Shown here: in pieces, positions 2,640 through 20,767 of the stretch
How positions within the stretch are numbered: position 1 is the first letter of the stretch
How the letters are laid out: each line of letters starts with the position of its first letter
Origin: a virus
Direction: 5' to 3' (one strand)
IMG/VR virus record: IMGVR_UViG_3300047678_000023
Span: 1-23,132 of that record
DNA length: 23,132 bases
Notes under the pieces: model-generated
Seen by the model: only the letters and a program-made list of their open reading frames with translations
Told to the model about the DNA's origin: nothing
Databases searched by the model: none
Translations under genes and position numbers: made by a program

Positions 2640-3530
2640 TTATCGGATTCCTAGATTTTGGAACATAAAGTCTGGGACAATCCCCGATGCAGTTTGTGTT
2701 TTCCAAGTCGGGGTGCTATTGGCGCCTTCCGACATAACTTGCCCATAAGTGCCGGCTGCAACGCGCACCATGTTCGTGCCATTGTAGTAAATCATGTCGC
2801 CCTTGGCGAAAGCCGTATTGGCAAGATCCGCCAAGACACCCGTTGCCGGGAGTGCCGCCAAGGATGTCCAGATCGGGTTTGCTGCCGCGCCGCTGGTTTG
2901 AAGGACCTGACCATTGGCGCCAGCCGGAAGCGCCACCCAGCCGGAGGCATTGCGGTAAAGCAAATTCCCCTGCGCCGTCCCAATGGAAGCGTCGAGCATT
3001 TGACTCATGGTCGTAGGCGTAGGTGCCGTCGTCGCGCCCGACACGTTGGCAAGCATGGTGGCAGTGCTGATCGGGGCCAACGATATAGTGCCGTTTTGCA
3101 CAATCGGACCGCCGGTCAAACCTGTGCCGGTATAGATAACTTGAACCCCAACGCCATGAAGGTTGGTGCCGTCCGAATAGACGACGACCTGCGACCCCTG
3201 GGGGACGACCACGCTGGTCGATGTTGCGGAAACCGTTTTGGCCGTGATCGTATAAGATCCGGCTGATTCATTATCGACGATCCAAAAGCCGCCATTGGCC
3301 GGAAAAAATAAGTTGATATTGCCCGTCAAAGTTCCGACCAGTTGCAGAACCAAGTTCTGGACTTGGCTTGCACTTACGGTCACATCGACATTACCGGCAA
3401 CAGGAACAGAGGCAACGCCGCCCAGATTGAGGTCGACCGTCAGAAACCCCAGATTAAGCAAGGTTCCCCAAGTATTAACATTTCCGTTAATAACTGGTTG
3501 GGGATAGCCCTTGTTCGGAGTTGTGGTCAC
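2640..3530 (-). CDS. Tail fibre protein, paralogue of the 420-residue fibre
   Basis: 296 residues from a GTG start at 3530. Residues 4-125 match the N-terminus of the fibre at 3909-5171: PVINGNVNTWGTLLN versus PVINGDFNAWGAELN, ASQVQNLVLQLVGTLTGNIN versus VSQVQSLSMKFTGVLTANIN, and VVVYSDGTNLH versus MLVYADGTNIW. Both then have a TGxxLxGGPI linker. Residues 179-223 are a full fibre repeat (LDASIGTAQGNLLYRNASGW, then GANGQVLQTSG...W) and 242-278 a weaker second copy. The gene ends with VPDFMFQNLGIR and lacks the PTISGGTLTLD C-terminal domain of its paralogue. The conserved N-terminus probably anchors the fibre to the tail (inference). An ATG start is not available at a sensible position, so GTG is chosen. 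Confidence 0.8.
   Translation of the reverse strand: MTTTPNKGYPQPVINGNVNTWGTLLNLGFLTVDLNLGGVASVPVAGNVDVTVSASQVQNLVLQLVGTLTGNINLFFPANGGFWIVDNESAGSYTITAKTVSATSTSVVVPQGSQVVVYSDGTNLHGVGVQVIYTGTGLTGGPIVQNGTISLAPISTATMLANVSGATTAPTPTTMSQMLDASIGTAQGNLLYRNASGWVALPAGANGQVLQTSGAAANPIWTSLAALPATGVLADLANTAFAKGDMIYYNGTNMVRVAAGTYGQVMSEGANSTPTWKTQTASGIVPDFMFQNLGIR
2697..2996 (-). repeat. Tail-fibre protein repeats, one full and one degenerate copy
   Basis: Positions 2862-2996 encode a full 45-residue repeat and 2697-2807 a degenerate copy in the same fibre. The consensus runs LD, G[ST]xxG, L[YF]R, SxW, LxPG, GQxLQTxG, then W. Full copies also lie at 4599-4736 and 4293-4427. Confidence 0.7.
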
Positions 3531-3908: not shown

Positions 3909-5171
3909 TTAGAAGTTTTGACCAGAAATGATGGCTTTGTAGGAAGTCCCGGCATTCGTTGTCCAAAACAGGAAAACATCTTGTTTCCCGTTCGTGGAAG
4001 TCAAGACCGGAGGCACCCCATTTGCCCATTTGACCGATGCAGGCCACGTCACGGTATAGGGGGTTCCCGTGGCGGTGAATTCCAAAATAAAGCCTGTTGG
4101 TGTACCTGTTGCTAATGGATTAGCAAGGACAAGGTTAGTCACATTGGCATTAAGCGTGACGGAAAAATAATTGGCTGTGGACTGATCCAGCGTCAGCGTC
4201 CCGCCGCTGATCGTCGGTGTCGTCATCGTGTCGCCAAGCTGTTTAAACACGTTCCAGCCGGTGAAGGTATTGTTGCCACCGGCGGAAATTGCATTGCTCC
4301 ACGTCAGATCGGCACCGGGCCCCCCAGTTTGCAAGATCTGGCCATTGGTGCCGGGGTTAAGCGTCAGCCATACCGATGAACCGCGAAACAGGATGGCGCC
4401 CTGTGTGGACCCAAATACGGCGTCCAGATAGGACGTCATGGACGTGGCGACGGGAATGGCCGGGCTTCCGGTCTTGTTTGCAACCAATTGAAGGGCGCCT
4501 GCCGTGGCTATGTCGATGGTGCCGACCGGGTTTGCTCCGTTGATCGGGCCACCTTGCAAGCTGGTCCCTGTATTGACCTGGGACGGCCCACCGATGCCGA
4601 CCGATGCCCACGTTGGGGGGCTGGACCCTTGGGTTTGCAAAAGCTGCCCGGCCACGCCCGGCGCAAGAATGGTCCAAAGGCTCGCGCCTCGATAAAGCAT
4701 CGCGCCCGGCGTTGATCCCATGGTCTGGTCCAGCAAAGCCGAAAACCCGGCTTGGGTTCCAAACCCGAAAGTATTAACATCAGTTGTTGCGGGCCAAATA
4801 TTAGTTCCGTCCGCATAGACAAGCATACGCTTGCCTTGAACAATCGATTGACCAGTGGCGCCGGTTGCCGTTGTAATAACGGTTAAAGTAAAAGCGCCGG
4901 TCGTTTGGTTATTGATAATATTAAAACCACCAATCCCCAATGGGAATATGACGTTAATATTTGCCGTCAATACGCCGGTAAATTTCATGGACAGGCTTTG
5001 GACTTGCGATACGGACAAGGTATAGTTTGCGCCGCCACCCACGTTAATGGATAGCTCAGACCCAAGGGCCTGATCGATTGTGGTCAGGTCAGCATTAAGC
5101 TCCGCACCCCAAGCGTTGAAATCGCCATTGATGACGGGCAGGACCAATGTCTTGTTCGTCGTGACAGTCAT
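3909..5171 (-). CDS. Tail fibre protein with two full fibre repeats and C-terminal beta domain
   Basis: 420 residues. Residues 1-125 are the N-terminal domain shared with the fibre at 2640-3530, with the landmark PVINGDFNAWGAELNADL. Residues 146-191 and 249-293 are two full fibre repeats: LDQTMGSTPGAMLYRGASLW...GVAGQLLQTQG, and LDAVFGSTQGAILFRGSSVW...GTNGQILQTGG. Residues 318-416 are the PTISGGTLTLD C-terminal domain also found at the end of the 264-residue fibre. The gene therefore combines both ends: the left paralogue keeps the N-terminus and the leftmost fibre keeps the C-terminus. Low charge and high Thr/Gly/Asn are typical of phage fibres. No convincing Shine-Dalgarno precedes the ATG at 5171. 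The 104 bases upstream hold no gene I can support. Confidence 0.82.
   Translation of the reverse strand: MTVTTNKTLVLPVINGDFNAWGAELNADLTTIDQALGSELSINVGGGANYTLSVSQVQSLSMKFTGVLTANINVIFPLGIGGFNIINNQTTGAFTLTVITTATGATGQSIVQGKRMLVYADGTNIWPATTDVNTFGFGTQAGFSALLDQTMGSTPGAMLYRGASLWTILAPGVAGQLLQTQGSSPPTWASVGIGGPSQVNTGTSLQGGPINGANPVGTIDIATAGALQLVANKTGSPAIPVATSMTSYLDAVFGSTQGAILFRGSSVWLTLNPGTNGQILQTGGPGADLTWSNAISAGGNNTFTGWNVFKQLGDTMTTPTISGGTLTLDQSTANYFSVTLNANVTNLVLANPLATGTPTGFILEFTATGTPYTVTWPASVKWANGVPPVLTSTNGKQDVFLFWTTNAGTSYKAIISGQNF
4293..4736 (-). repeat. Tail-fibre protein repeats, two full copies
   Basis: Positions 4599-4736 and 4293-4427 encode copies of about 45 residues separated by a non-repeat linker. 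Both read LD...G[ST]T.G...L[YF]RG.S.W, then PG..GQ[LI]LQT.G and TW. The DNA has diverged, so the relation is clear mainly at the protein level. Confidence 0.7.
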
Positions 5172-5275: not shown

Positions 5276-5980
5276 TTATAAATCGTAGAAAGGTATTAAG
5301 ATGTCGGCGTTTGTAACTGGGTGCTGGACAACCATGAACCCAGCCGGGATTGTTAGGTCAACCTTTTGAACGTCGCGCTGATCAATGATTCGCGTGGCAA
5401 CAATAACACGTCCGTCGCCATTAAGTTCCGTTACTCGGACTGCACCTTCGTATGGGACGTGGGTCCAAGTTCTATTCAGAATCACATCCCGAATTGTTCC
5501 AATGCCAACCCCAAATTTTGTAGCAAATGACGCTAGGCTATAATTTTTCCAATCTCGTCGAATTTCTTTAACGTCATCTTCTGTCAATTTTGCTTTATAT
5601 GACGTCGTTCCACGGGGCTGCGTTTTGTGGTGAACTTTGTCTTTCGCATTTTCACGAGCCGTTCCATATCTCAGATTTGTCAAACGATTGTCGGAGGGAT
5701 TACCATTATTGTGGCAAACATACATGCCTTTTAACTGGGGGCCTAAAAAAGCCCAAGCAACAGCGCGATGAACACCTATTGATCGCATACCGATATTAGC
5801 TCTTGTAACGGCATACGTCACATAGCCATTCCTGCCGGGCCGAGCATGTCTCAAGCCTGTTACGCAATCTTTGAACCGCCCGAGTGACGACACTTGATAG
5901 ATGCCTTCACACCCCGGAATGTCGCGCCATTCTTCGGCTTCATCAACTATTGTACAGGGGGATTTTGTAACTGACTCCAT
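5276..5980 (-). CDS. NUMOD4-HNH homing endonuclease fused to the tail of a short virion protein
   Basis: 234 residues. Residues 17-36 are a NUMOD4 motif (EEWRDIPGCEGIYQVSSLGR). Residues 70-105 are the HNH core: H71 in VHRAVAWAFLG, CHNNGNPSDNRLTNLRYGT with H90 and N92, and RENA after it. Residues 130-173 are an AT-hook/NUMOD3-like and helix-turn-helix DNA-binding tail (KAKLTEDDVKEI, SFATKFGVGIGTIRDVI, NRTWTHV). The relative at 9977-10489 ends just after the same point (GRTWSHLSEAA). This protein instead continues for about 58 residues to FMVVQHPVTNADILIPFYDL, which resembles the end of the upstream 80-residue protein (KFMIVVGTDGVSYKIPLYNS). The ATG at 5980 lies inside that gene in another frame, overlapping it by 38 bases. 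Expected role: a mobile nuclease cutting phage DNA. The fusion is unusual. Confidence 0.85.
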   Translation of the reverse strand: MESVTKSPCTIVDEAEEWRDIPGCEGIYQVSSLGRFKDCVTGLRHARPGRNGYVTYAVTRANIGMRSIGVHRAVAWAFLGPQLKGMYVCHNNGNPSDNRLTNLRYGTARENAKDKVHHKTQPRGTTSYKAKLTEDDVKEIRRDWKNYSLASFATKFGVGIGTIRDVILNRTWTHVPYEGAVRVTELNGDGRVIVATRIIDQRDVQKVDLTIPAGFMVVQHPVTNADILIPFYDL

Positions 5981-6185
5981 CGGTTCCTACCACAATCATA
6001 AATTTAACCGGATTAGCCGGAAGTGTAGCAGCACCACTGGTTGCTGTCGCGGAAAAACCTTGCTGCTGCGGAAAGACCTTCGAAAGGGTCTGATTCGCAT
6101 TGGCGATGGCTTTGGCAATGTTCTGGATGCCTTGAAAAAGGTTGGCCAGTCCGCCGCCGCTACTAAATCCTGGTCCATCAGTCAT
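5943..6185 (-). CDS. Short phage structural protein (hub-adjacent)
   Basis: 80 residues: MTDGPGFSSGGGLANLFQGI, then an amphipathic helix (QNIAKAIANANQTLSKVFPQ), then a short beta tail ending DGVSYKIPLYNS. Small proteins of this build, with an 'L...I..I..AI...N..L..VFPQ' helix followed by a beta strand ending in 'VP[YF]Y', are common next to the hub gene in podoviruses. I recall the pattern but not a named function. The ATG overlaps the stop of the hub gene by one base (TAATG), and GGGAGG upstream is a strong Shine-Dalgarno. Its 3' end overlaps the start of the homing nuclease gene by 38 bases in another frame. A second, diverged copy of its C-terminal segment appears to be fused to the end of that nuclease. 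Confidence 0.75.
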   Translation of the reverse strand: MTDGPGFSSGGGLANLFQGIQNIAKAIANANQTLSKVFPQQQGFSATATSGAATLPANPVKFMIVVGTDGVSYKIPLYNS

Positions 6186-8281
6186 TATCGCCTCCCTGCT
6201 GGGCCAATAACCATTTCATTCTTGCCTGCTCGCCAAAAAACAGAATGGTCCGTGCTTTCAATTTTTATCCGGCCTACGCGCCCGCGTCCTTTGACAATCA
6301 CATATTCGGTCGTCGATGTGACCACAAATGGGCCAAAGGTTTTTAACTTAGACGGTGTGGATGTTGTGTCGTCATTCACGTAGTCGGCGGTCTGGACGGT
6401 CAACTTGACCGACCCACCAGAGATAACGAAGTCTGGCAATATCCGTTGGATAGATAAGAAATTGTCACCTTCACCAAGCTTAAACCAGCCCGTCCAGGCA
6501 TACGAATCCATTGCCTGACCGTCAAAGTCATTGTCCATTTCATGCTGTTGAAGGATGCCATTCTGATCAACGCCGATAGGCGCTCCCAAGATCGATTGAT
6601 CAATCCAGTCGGTTCGGGTCAATGTCCCACAATCCCAGACCTTATCGAGCACATTGAGTTTGGCATAGCTGGTCACCACGCCATTTGATCCCACGGTTGG
6701 AAAGTAGAATCCAATTTCATTGAAATAGGCGTTTGGCGCCGCGAACACGTTGTCGAGATAATTGGTATCAATATTGTTGAAAACAAAATCCCAGACCGTG
6801 CAGCGCACAGGTTCGACGGCCGATCCATTGTAGACAAAGAAACCCTTTTGCGACATCCAGTAGATTTCAGGGCCCATCTTCGCCACGCCGCGAAGTGAAA
6901 TAAGCCCGCAACCAATGCCCAACTTGGTGAAACTGTAGACCAAAGGATAGCCGATATATTGCATCGACCAGAATTCGATGTCCGTCCAGAACAAGCCTTG
7001 CAATGGCGCCTGGATGCCACCGACAATTCGGGAGCCTGAAGGCAAGCGGAATGAACCGGCTTGGTTTGTCGCGGTCACAAGCCAGGATGAATAGTCGCTA
7101 ACGTCCGAAAATCGAATTAGCAATGGATCTTGGGTTGCCGCTCCTGGCGTTGAAACCAAGGTCATGTCTGTGCCGTAGATCACCAACTGCTGTTGCGGCA
7201 TAGCCACGAATAGGCCGGTAGACGTCCATGGTACGTAATTTCCGGTGTAGACGGCCCTGGGGATCAATGCCGCTGAATTCGAATAAACAGTGCCTAGAGG
7301 CGGCGTCCAGACATAGGGTGGGCCACCGGTATAGCTGGCAACTAGAAGCTGCCCCCAGTTATCCAATGACCACTGACGAAGGGTATTGTATCCGCTGATC
7401 GAAAGGCCGTATGGACCGACGCTATAGGCGCCGTCGCCATATCCAAAATTGGTATTGTCGACTGAACTGTGTAGCCCGTAGATGATTCTTACATTGCCGC
7501 CATTTTCGTAAGTTGGACCGGCGCTGCTGCCTGCTGCGGATGCAGTTGTAATCGTCGCTGACCCCGGCGTGTTGCCGTAATAGTTCTGGCCGAAATAACC
7601 ATCCCCATATCCTTGATTGGTCACGGTCACATCATAGGCACCACCGATGGTCAAACCGCCGACACTGGTCGGAACCCCCACCAGGATGTTCTGGTAATTT
7701 GTAAACGGGTAGGTGGCTAGAGTGATTATCACGGTGGTCGATGACACCGTTGTCTGGAAACTTAATGTTGCCCCGCCAGAAACAACGGTAGTGGTTGCTG
7801 GCACAGACGCGGTGATCGTGTAGTTGCCAGATCCAACCGTCTTGACTTCATAGGACCCTTGAAGAACCAAGCCCCCCACATAGCTCATATTTGCAATGAT
7901 GATGTAATCACCGACGATAGGGGTATAACCGCCATCCGTGACCGTGACCGTGCGCGATCCAGCCTGAGTTGAAAATGGCGCGGTCAGATTGTCGATCTGC
8001 AATTGCGGGGTAATGTCATAAAGCTGCTCTTGCAGATACAGATGCAAACGCTTGTTGGTGCCAATGCCAATGTATTGATTACCTGCAAGATCGGCCCACG
8101 CCTTCATCCCACGAGCGGTGCCGATGACTGCCGTGTTGGTCAATCGGATCGATCCACCCAATTTTTGCAAAAGCCCATCCTTGAAGCGAACGAGATTAGA
8201 GGCTGAGTAGCCTCCTTCGTTGCTTAAATATGTGGCCTGCACATTTACGCCGGGCCTAATATTTAACGGCACCATTGCCAT
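6185..8281 (-). CDS. P22 gp10-like tail hub / packaged-DNA stabilisation protein
   Basis: 698 residues. The N-terminus PLNIRPGVNVQATYLSNEGG, then NLVRFKDGLLQKLGG, matches the 'IRPGVN...T....gGw...d.VRFr.GlPEKiGGW' start of phage stabilisation (gp10-type) proteins. KAWADLAGNQYIGIGTNKRL and LYDITP follow, as expected for this beta-propeller family. Residues about 102-225 are two inserted beta modules (VGGLVLQGSYEVKTV, and VGGLTIGGAYDVTV) absent from the family core, followed by a Gly/Tyr-rich stretch. The later part carries the family body (SRIVGGIQAPLQGLFWTDIE, YWMSQKGFFVYNG). The protein would close the tail end of the connector and hold packaged DNA. ATG at 8281 lies 3 bases after the previous stop; a second ATG two codons on is an alternative. 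Confidence 0.85.
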   Translation of the reverse strand: MAMVPLNIRPGVNVQATYLSNEGGYSASNLVRFKDGLLQKLGGSIRLTNTAVIGTARGMKAWADLAGNQYIGIGTNKRLHLYLQEQLYDITPQLQIDNLTAPFSTQAGSRTVTVTDGGYTPIVGDYIIIANMSYVGGLVLQGSYEVKTVGSGNYTITASVPATTTVVSGGATLSFQTTVSSTTVIITLATYPFTNYQNILVGVPTSVGGLTIGGAYDVTVTNQGYGDGYFGQNYYGNTPGSATITTASAAGSSAGPTYENGGNVRIIYGLHSSVDNTNFGYGDGAYSVGPYGLSISGYNTLRQWSLDNWGQLLVASYTGGPPYVWTPPLGTVYSNSAALIPRAVYTGNYVPWTSTGLFVAMPQQQLVIYGTDMTLVSTPGAATQDPLLIRFSDVSDYSSWLVTATNQAGSFRLPSGSRIVGGIQAPLQGLFWTDIEFWSMQYIGYPLVYSFTKLGIGCGLISLRGVAKMGPEIYWMSQKGFFVYNGSAVEPVRCTVWDFVFNNIDTNYLDNVFAAPNAYFNEIGFYFPTVGSNGVVTSYAKLNVLDKVWDCGTLTRTDWIDQSILGAPIGVDQNGILQQHEMDNDFDGQAMDSYAWTGWFKLGEGDNFLSIQRILPDFVISGGSVKLTVQTADYVNDDTTSTPSKLKTFGPFVVTSTTEYVIVKGRGRVGRIKIESTDHSVFWRAGKNEMVIGPAGRR

Positions 8282-9976: not shown

Positions 9977-10489
9977 TTAAGCCGCCTCCGACAAATGAGA
10001 CCAGGTTCGGCCAGATAAAACCTGCCATATCGTTGTATGGCTTACATTAAGAAGCTTTCCCAATTCACGTTGATAATACCGATGAGCGTTATCTTTAATG
10101 TATTGGATACTTTCGTCTGAAAGTTTGGCTTTCCCAGATTTTTGCCCAATTGCTTCATTGCCATGAGCTTTTCTATCGGCGCAATTTTCTTTTGGTGTCC
10201 CGTATCTCAAGTTTTTAGCATTGTTATTTTTTTGGTTTCCATCCGAATGCAAAACCCACACACCTTTTTTGCGGGGACCAATAAATTCTTGAGCTACCAA
10301 ATGATGAATTCGGCAAGTAAAGTTTTTTAACCCTACGGTTGGATACACGCAAGGATACCCAACCTTATCAAGGTTTGGCTTCAAGATGCGGCCGCGTTTT
10401 CCGTTTGGGGTATCTAAACTTCTGACTTGGCCGAAGTTTGAAACTTCGTACCCCGGAATATGGCTGATTTTTTTCCATACTTCGCCCAT
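9977..10489 (-). CDS. NUMOD4-HNH free-standing homing endonuclease
   Basis: 170 residues. Residues 5-25 are a NUMOD4 motif (WKKISHIPGYEVSNFGQVRS). The HNH core follows: RIHHLVAQEFIGP with the first catalytic-type His, then VLHSDGNQKNNNAKNLRYGT and KENC. The C-terminal third is DNA-binding (SGKAKLSDESIQYIKDNAHR, then LGKLLNVSHTTIWQVLSGRT), a helix-turn-helix of the intron-encoded-nuclease type. It sits between the gp4-like adaptor and the zinc-ribbon gene, in the same orientation and with no spacer. Its Shine-Dalgarno AGGTGA overlaps the stop codon of the adaptor. Likely a selfish element cutting related phage DNA at an intergenic site. It is a clear relative of the nuclease at 5276-5980 and has no C-terminal extension. 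Confidence 0.88.
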   Translation of the reverse strand: MGEVWKKISHIPGYEVSNFGQVRSLDTPNGKRGRILKPNLDKVGYPCVYPTVGLKNFTCRIHHLVAQEFIGPRKKGVWVLHSDGNQKNNNAKNLRYGTPKENCADRKAHGNEAIGQKSGKAKLSDESIQYIKDNAHRYYQRELGKLLNVSHTTIWQVLSGRTWSHLSEAA

Positions 10490-16003: not shown

Positions 16004-16801
16004 CTAAAGCTCCGTCGCTTGTATGTCGTGACAACCGCATTTCCGACAAGTCAAGACAACTCCCTTGCCGTGCTTTCCAAACCGCAGTTGAAGATTGTCC
16101 AACGAATTATTTGTCCTGTCACCATCTTTGTGGTGGACGGATTCGTAGCTATGTAGAATGCGCCCTAAACTCTTTGCCATAACTAGACGGTGCTGTGGGA
16201 CGTAACCACTCCGCGTTGCCATCGCAAAGTAAGGGTCGTCAGAATACACCCGCTCTATAAGGTATCCTTCCCCATTTTTTGAGATACCCCCTTTCCAGCT
16301 ACCGTGCTTATCTCCAGATGCTTTCTTTCCATCTGACACACCGTGTTTAATGGCTATCCTGCTAACAACACTTTGATTGCACCCGAATTTTGAGGCAACA
16401 GCAACCTGTTTTAAACCAGATTTAAGCGCCGCCACAATTTCAAGTTCTTCTTCGTCGCTTATTCGGCGGCGTTGGCCACCATGGTCCCGCAGCTTTATCC
16501 CGGCGCGGCGAACACACTCGCGCATAGCGTAATCCGCGCAGCCATATTTTTCTTTCATTTCAGGCCAAGACATCCCCGCCTGATAATCAGCAATCACCCG
16601 CTCTGCCGCTTCACCATCAAACTTCAATCGGCGGGGTTTTGGGTCTGTCCAGCTTGGAATATCTGCACCACCTTCATGCAGCATCCGATAGACAGCCTTG
16701 GGCGATACCCCCATTTTTGATGCTACTTTGTAGGCGCTCCCTAAATCCCGATAAAGCTCCATGGCGTAATCAATCTCGGCTTGACTGCGTTTTTTAACCA
16801 T
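16004..16801 (-). CDS. HNH homing endonuclease with three N-terminal helix-turn-helix segments
   Basis: 265 residues from ATG 16801, starting MVKKRSQAEIDYAMELYRDL. Residues 8-45, 63-102 and 116-155 are three helix-turn-helix-like units (AYKVASKMGVSPKAVYRML, WPEMKEKYGCADYAMRECV, VAVASKFGCNQSVVSRIAI). Then GDKHGSWKGGISKNGEGYL leads into an HNH_3 core: QHRLVMAKSLGRIL with H204, then ESVHHKDGDRTNNSLDNLQL with H223, H224 and N232. Cys252, Cys255 and Cys257 near the end could bind zinc. The frame extends to an ATG at 16831, but AGGGGGT sits just before 16801 and fits that start better. It lies between the 143-residue fibre-type gene and the Cys-rich miniprotein. The modular DNA-binding N-terminus suggests a long target site (inference). 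Confidence 0.87.
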   Translation of the reverse strand: MVKKRSQAEIDYAMELYRDLGSAYKVASKMGVSPKAVYRMLHEGGADIPSWTDPKPRRLKFDGEAAERVIADYQAGMSWPEMKEKYGCADYAMRECVRRAGIKLRDHGGQRRRISDEEELEIVAALKSGLKQVAVASKFGCNQSVVSRIAIKHGVSDGKKASGDKHGSWKGGISKNGEGYLIERVYSDDPYFAMATRSGYVPQHRLVMAKSLGRILHSYESVHHKDGDRTNNSLDNLQLRFGKHGKGVVLTCRKCGCHDIQATEL

Positions 16802-16845
16802 TTTAACCCCCTGTGGCATATAGCCAAACAAGAGATATTATTACA

Positions 16846-20059: not shown

Positions 20060-20767
20060 CTAATTCCTTTTCCCAAGTGGGACTACATTCGAGGTTTCGA
20101 CTTCCGCCAACTTACGGGCTTTGTGGAAATCTAAATAGTCCGCAGCAGCGCGCAGGACCGCCGAATCATCTTTCAGCTTGCCAATTCCAGTATTGCAATC
20201 AGAGCATAAAAGACCGCGAACATCACCAGTTTTGTGATCATGATCGACCGAAAGCCATTTAACTTTTCCAGCGCGTGTTGCCGTTTCTGGCTGTGCGCAA
20301 ACGGCACAAACGCCTTTTTGCTCAACAAACATCCGCTGGTAATCATCAAGGCCGATGCCAAAGCTTTTCTTCAAATCTTGCGCACGGAACCGATTTGGGT
20401 CGGCTTCACGAGCAGATTTTTGATAAGCAGCGCGGCCTTCTTTGGTGCGATGATCAAACTTCCCTTCCATCGGATAACCGCTGTCACGTAGGAATTCGAT
20501 GCGAGTCTCACCTTTGTCGCCAGTCACAGAACGAATTGGACCCTTTGGCCATTCACCATGGACATAGAACCACACCAATTTTTGAACTGTATAATCGCGC
20601 TTATCGACCTTGATGTATTGATAACCGTGGCCACCATCACCACCGGCTTTCGAGCCAATAATGATATTCCGAGCCGCACGTACTTTCCATGTGAACACGC
20701 CGGTTGCCCGGTCGTAGTTCAACACTTCAAGTAAACGTGCGTGCGTAAGTTCCACTTTGCTTCTCAT
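20060..20767 (-). CDS. Homing-type nuclease: degenerate HNH domain plus endonuclease VII domain
   Basis: 235 residues. Residues 8-98 align with phage HNH proteins (LLEVLNYDRATGVFTWKVRA, GYQYIKVDKRDYTVQKLVWF, then YVHGEWPKGPI, then TGDKGETRIEFLRDS). However, the usual 'HRLvW' is QKLVW and the usual 'IDHinGdr.DNR' is IRSVTGDKGETR, so the catalytic His residues are gone. Residues 135-215 are a recombination endonuclease VII domain (T4 gp49 family) with Cys154 and Cys157 (GVCAVC), DHDHKTG (His176, His178), RGLLCSDCN (Cys188, Cys191) and IGKLKDD, all key residues present. The start at 20767 is set by AGGAGG six bases upstream, and that site is buried in a hairpin. It is placed immediately after the major capsid gene. 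T4 endonuclease VII resolves branched DNA; a free-standing mobile nuclease is more likely here. Confidence 0.85.
   Translation of the reverse strand: MRSKVELTHARLLEVLNYDRATGVFTWKVRAARNIIIGSKAGGDGGHGYQYIKVDKRDYTVQKLVWFYVHGEWPKGPIRSVTGDKGETRIEFLRDSGYPMEGKFDHRTKEGRAAYQKSAREADPNRFRAQDLKKSFGIGLDDYQRMFVEQKGVCAVCAQPETATRAGKVKWLSVDHDHKTGDVRGLLCSDCNTGIGKLKDDSAVLRAAADYLDFHKARKLAEVETSNVVPLGKRN

Follow-up and report, generated by a model that had tools for sequence, protein, structure and literature searches.

The window analyzed here, the whole 23,132-base stretch of an IMG/VR virus record, encodes a homing-type endonuclease to which sequence foreign to its family has been added in frame, about 13 residues at the N terminus and 59 at the C terminus, and the 3' piece very probably ends in a divergent copy of a C-terminal module of virion proteins. 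A moderately probable explanation is that the nuclease settled behind a gene that it left whole and that its reading frame was joined to DNA for the C-terminal end of a different module-containing protein, or that it carried this tail in.

Gene order and the extended endonuclease

The late genes examined here are found on the minus strand. At this site, a gene similar to P22 gp10 is followed by a gene for an 80-residue protein, the nuclease gene, and a tail-fiber gene:

6185 to 8281, minus strand: P22 gp10-like "phage stabilization protein," 698 residues, ending in GPAGRR (phrog_3287, E = 2e-58)
5943 to 6185, minus strand: 80-residue gene with a helical N-terminal part and a C-terminal module, intact
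5949 to 6053, minus strand: C-terminal module of the 80-residue protein, residues 45 to 79 (profile, 47 bits)
5276 to 5980, minus strand: free-standing HNH homing-type endonuclease, 234 residues, both ends extended in frame (Pfam and phrog_59)
5943 to 5980, minus strand: overlap of the nuclease and 80-residue genes, 38 nucleotides
5816 to 5935, minus strand: NUMOD4 motif, nuclease residues 16 to 55 (Pfam)
5645 to 5776, minus strand: HNH_3 nuclease domain, residues 69 to 112 (Pfam)
5456 to 5587, minus strand: C-terminal helical DNA-binding-like region ending in RTWTHV, about residues 132 to 175
5276 to 5455, minus strand: 59-residue extension of the nuclease (residues 176 to 234), absent from all relatives seen
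5282 to 5347, minus strand: very probable divergent copy of the virion C-terminal module, nuclease residues 212 to 233 (profile)
3909 to 5171, minus strand: tail-fiber gene, 420 residues, downstream of the nuclease (phrog_9017, E = 1e-14)
9977 to 10489, minus strand: second phrog_59 endonuclease, 170 residues, without the extension

The gp10-like gene is matched to annotated phage stabilization proteins by tblastn, and its last base is shared with the start of the 80-residue gene. Three further nuclease genes are scattered among the structural genes: the second phrog_59 HNH gene, an HTH-HNH protein (positions 16004 to 16831), and an endonuclease VII-like protein (20060 to 20767), whose N terminus matches the HNH family phrog_99. 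Judged by eye, the fiber genes at 2640 to 3530 and 3909 to 5171 have similar N termini (xNKxxxxPVINGxxNxWG), which suggests a duplicated or exchanged fiber block.

The nuclease belongs to phrog_59 (E = 6e-41) and has the NUMOD4-HNH domain order, with Pfam matches to NUMOD4 (E = 4e-8) and then to HNH_3 (E = 5e-11); it shares 32% identity over 167 residues with its paralog at 9977 to 10489. Its phrog_59 relatives, from Achromobacter phage JWAlpha, a Listeria metagenomic phage (L224), Mycobacterium phage Lesedi (L226), and the IMG/VR sequence L003, align only as far as nuclease residues 175 to 184. The shortest of them stop exactly at a conserved motif, in GRTWSHV (JWAlpha) or RRTWTEI (the Listeria metagenomic phage); the paralog in the window ends in RTWSHLSEAA, four residues beyond RTWSHL, and the Lesedi and L003 proteins have about 12 to 20 unrelated residues beyond the RTWxHV position. 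The family thus ends at or soon after RTW.H[VL], whereas the nuclease at 5276 to 5980 continues for 59 residues past V175. An earlier note on this DNA, which had put this extension at about 58 residues and the end of the paralog near RTWSHL, was accurate on both counts, and the coordinates and C-terminal sequences that it quoted for the nuclease and the 80-residue ORF are exact. It had also considered that the same extension might occur on other nucleases of this family; none of the phrog_59 homologs compared has it. The extension is a decoration and not a core feature of phrog_59.

At the N terminus, the nuclease contains about 13 extra residues, MESVTKSPCTIVD, which the 3' end of the 80-residue gene encodes in a frame other than its own. 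Its ATG lies 38 nucleotides inside that gene, in agreement with the earlier description, and no other in-frame ATG, GTG, or TTG is found upstream of the NUMOD4 domain. An Rfam scan of the window detected no group I or group II intron or other relevant RNA family; the nuclease lies outside self-splicing elements, and the neighboring gene is unbroken.

A widespread C-terminal module and the 80-residue neighbor

The 80-residue protein ends in SATAGxATLPANPVGF..V...G...KVPYY and is a clear member (47 bits) of a group of proteins that share the C-terminal consensus (S)ATAGxATLPANPVGFxxVxxxGxxxKVPYYN, or, in the fuller form of about 35 residues, ATAGxATLPANPVGFINVTVNGxPYKVPYYN. A scan of IMG/VR with degenerate DNA for L-P-x-N-P-[AV]-G-[FY] returned at least 120 loci, and in nearly all of the matches listed this motif lies about 25 residues from a C terminus. 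The module forms the ending of at least about 100 distinct phage proteins, from the products of 41-residue genes to 640-residue fibers, and is joined to many different N-terminal parts, both in short genes that follow gp10-like or other tail genes and in fibers of 299 to 640 residues. It also terminates the tail fibers of Acinetobacter Obolenskvirus and of Tunturiibacter phage Tunturi_3. The profile used here was built from 90 IMG/VR endings out of the pattern scan; its seed was a motif suggested by the 80-residue neighbor together with a family pattern, so that the breadth given is a lower bound. The member proteins that were scanned gave no match to a Pfam or PHROG family, and this common module of phage fibers and short tail-operon proteins is apparently unnamed. 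In several freshwater phages (L130, L143, L150, L153, and others), the module gene is directly followed by a small cupin-like gene with the pattern HHFSDGLYAKEM.IPKG....H.H..SHLSILAKG.

The predicted structure of the 80-residue protein (mean pLDDT, 71) consists of a helix at residues 12 to 37 and strands at residues 61 to 66 and 72 to 77; a Foldseek search with this model gave no significant match. A role in the virion may be assigned to this protein because it occupies the position of P22 gene 26 and because its module is also present on fibers. Uninterrupted orthologs of 72 to 93 residues are found directly after the gp10-like gene in six phages (L109, L122, L164, L189, L197, and L205), with helix, linker, and module unbroken, and those of L109, L164, and L205 are 43 to 47% identical to the protein from the window. 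Exact-peptide scans of IMG/VR for relatives of the 80-residue gene, the nuclease tail, and the fiber found none. The gene in the window has the same length and the complete pattern, and it ends like its uninterrupted orthologs; it is neither split nor in need of a replacement end.

The ATG used by the nuclease is a common feature of such genes. Among the matches listed, an ATG is present at precisely position -38 in 58 of 100 distinct module genes, and the genes that follow them are quite different. This ATG stems from the codons for [ND]-G in the module and is a by-product of codon choice. The 38-nucleotide overlap thus carries little information and is not a signature of homing.

The most syntenic relative found, L109 (IMGVR_UViG_3300048793_000013, a 57.9-kb IMG/VR contig), has the same order of gp10-like gene, module gene, and fiber gene. 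The N-terminal domain of the fiber at 3909 to 5171 is common to fibers of several relatives, including the one that follows the module gene and the endonuclease gene in L109. The L109 junction between module gene and fiber (L231) is occupied by a 217-residue HNH endonuclease ORF on the opposite strand, which belongs to phrog_374 (E = 2e-66) and is unrelated to the phrog_59 nuclease of the window. The stop codon of this ORF overlaps, on the opposite strand, the 3' end of the module gene. A motif search of up to 2 kb downstream on either strand, covering the 113 module loci listed, recovered the L109 gene as the only other endonuclease; no phrog_59-type gene is found at this junction in L122, L164, L189, L197, or L205. 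As two unrelated endonucleases are located in the same junction, albeit in only two genomes, the boundary between the module gene and the fiber gene may be a hot spot for homing endonucleases.

Origin of the nuclease tail

Residues 212 to 233 of the 234-residue nuclease match the module profile, with 11.5 bits (E = 9e-6) for the tail alone and 8.3 bits (E = 9e-5) for the whole protein. When 3,305 C-terminal 60-mers of the loci retrieved were scored, no other non-module sequence rose above 7.2 bits, and of 20,000 shuffled versions of the tail, only 1 did as well as the real one. This resemblance is thus more than chance, and the earlier statement that the two proteins have like endings is borne out. 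The tail fits the pattern P.GF..V...(8 to 10 residues)..[IV]P[YF]Y at its very C terminus, aligns only with profile columns 20 to 39 (the hairpin half), and lacks the ATAGxATLPANP linker; a direct BLASTP comparison with the tail of the 80-residue protein gave no similarity. Judging from these matches, the nuclease tail is very probably a divergent copy of the hairpin half of the module. The comparison of predicted structures proposed in the earlier note agrees in that both C termini are modeled as a pair of short strands, but the nuclease tail is modeled with low confidence (pLDDT of 33 to 50). The 10-mer CAGTTACAAA/TTTGTAACTG is present both in the nuclease tail (5310 to 5319) and at the 3' end of the 80-residue gene (5964 to 5973), in different frames, and is probably shared by chance.

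Neither a donor gene nor a close relative of the 59-residue tail turned up in a phage homology search (no match at an E value of 10) or in scans of IMG/VR and genome_contigs, and the origin of the tail is thus deduced from its 22 matching residues. In IMG/VR, the tail pattern retrieved only fiber endings with a 10-residue spacing (L213 to L215) and a chance internal match (L212); in genome_contigs, it retrieved chance matches only.

The explanation favored here assumes that a free-standing NUMOD4-HNH homing-type endonuclease inserted just behind the stop codon of the small gene and before the tail-fiber block. After insertion, the nuclease frame would have lost its own start and stop codons and borrowed the ATG that is often present in module genes. 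With this ATG inside the 80-residue gene, translation of the nuclease would probably be coupled to that gene. The tail might be the 3' remnant of a different module-bearing gene, either a small gene or a fiber, at the landing site; alternatively, it might have been brought in together with the nuclease or picked up earlier. The codon usage of the tail, which falls between those of the virion genes and the nuclease cores, is in keeping with this explanation. The L109 junction contains no tail-like sequence, so the landing-site version draws on the window itself. By analogy with the free-standing endonucleases of T4, the gene might spread by cleaving nuclease-free relatives close to the junction, after which it would be copied into them along with its flanking sequence. 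Residues 1 to 175 would constitute the cutting part, with the tail most likely a passenger, and the cut would plausibly fall in the conserved 3' end of the module gene or next to it. Co-conversion of the end of the 80-residue gene by an orthologous module is possible, although nothing requires it.

In the model of the earlier note, insertion took place close to the end of the 80-residue gene; the nuclease provided that gene with a replacement 3' end and retained the displaced original one as its own tail. This fits the homologous modules of the two abutting genes, but we regard it as quite improbable. In linker, module, and length, the 80-residue gene conforms to its six uninterrupted orthologs, which end like the gene in the window and not like the tail, so that its present end does not appear to be a replacement. 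The SATAGAATLPANP linker is missing from the tail, and nothing in any uninterrupted version corresponds to the ~35 residues that come before the hairpin. Moreover, in an alignment with 73 module endings among the matches listed, the tail is closest to those of L107, L196, and L092, whereas the ending of the neighbor ranks only 71st in closeness, with a score of 14 (the neighbor's own best matches score 80). Tail and neighbor do not rejoin into an uninterrupted host gene, since the host gene is already complete and the tail is unlike its end; the ATG at -38 is, in any case, common in module genes. What stands of that model is a homing-type nuclease located beside a small gene and fused to the same kind of ending; the displaced and replaced ends do not.

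The tail could instead have arrived with the endonuclease, if an ancestor located elsewhere was fused to a module-bearing fiber or small gene and then homed here. Potential donors are plentiful among fibers and short genes that end in the module, and the greater closeness of the tail to the L107, L196, and L092 modules than to that of the neighbor is consistent with such a history; it nevertheless seems unlikely, given that the tail occurs in none of the phrog_59 homologs compared and has no phage match. We also give little credence to simple read-through into noncoding or off-frame DNA that resembles the module by chance. The match comprises just 22 residues, direct BLAST similarity is lacking, and the codon usage of the tail is at the 4th percentile of virion genes. 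On the other hand, none of about 3,300 natural ORF ends scores as high, the match is anchored at the very C terminus, and the 59-codon frame is open, with a codon usage above that of 98% of off-frame windows. A remnant of the cupin-like gene mentioned above has been effectively refuted as a source: TIP.GFM..QH is common to the tail and the L130-type proteins, but this local match reaches 3.9 bits, compared with 11.5 bits for the module, and does not continue beyond 14 residues. Finally, the captured module might dock the nuclease to the virion or tail assembly, as it may dock fibers, so that the nuclease would be carried in the particle and enter the cell along with the DNA, ready to act at once against a competing phage. 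This appears very improbable; if true, it would turn a homing endonuclease into a virion component.

Comparison with known systems

The nuclease is, by its sequence, a case of a homing-type endonuclease fused to the ending of a structural protein, and the junction in which it lies, at the 3' end of a conserved module gene and before a fiber block, is occupied in two related phages by endonucleases that are unrelated to each other. Should this be confirmed, it would be a further case of endonucleases gathering beside host-range genes and spreading them by co-conversion. The analysis also exposes the module itself.

In T4, free-standing endonucleases are found between genes, and 5 of 12 overlap the upstream ORF, with listed overlaps of 1, 11, 20, 23, and 24 bp (PMC2988022). 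The window nuclease resembles the mob genes of T4-like phages and other phrog_59 members in its domain order, its place between conserved genes, and a start that overlaps the upstream gene. As with free-standing HNH homing endonucleases, a second copy is present in the same genome and another endonuclease occupies the junction of a relative. In contrast to the T4 mob genes, it has a 59-residue extension ending in a virion module, and its 38-nucleotide overlap is longer than those listed for T4. The arrangement is also similar to that of genes split by endonucleases (mobE in Aeh1 nrdA and mobA in T4 gene 60), with a conserved coding sequence adjacent to the nuclease and host-gene-like sequence on its far side. 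Here, however, the adjacent gene is complete and lacks nothing that the fragment on the far side could supply. With respect to the module LPANPVGFxxVxxxGxxxKVPYYN of fibers and short tail-operon genes, the tail is a probable divergent member that is located on a nuclease.
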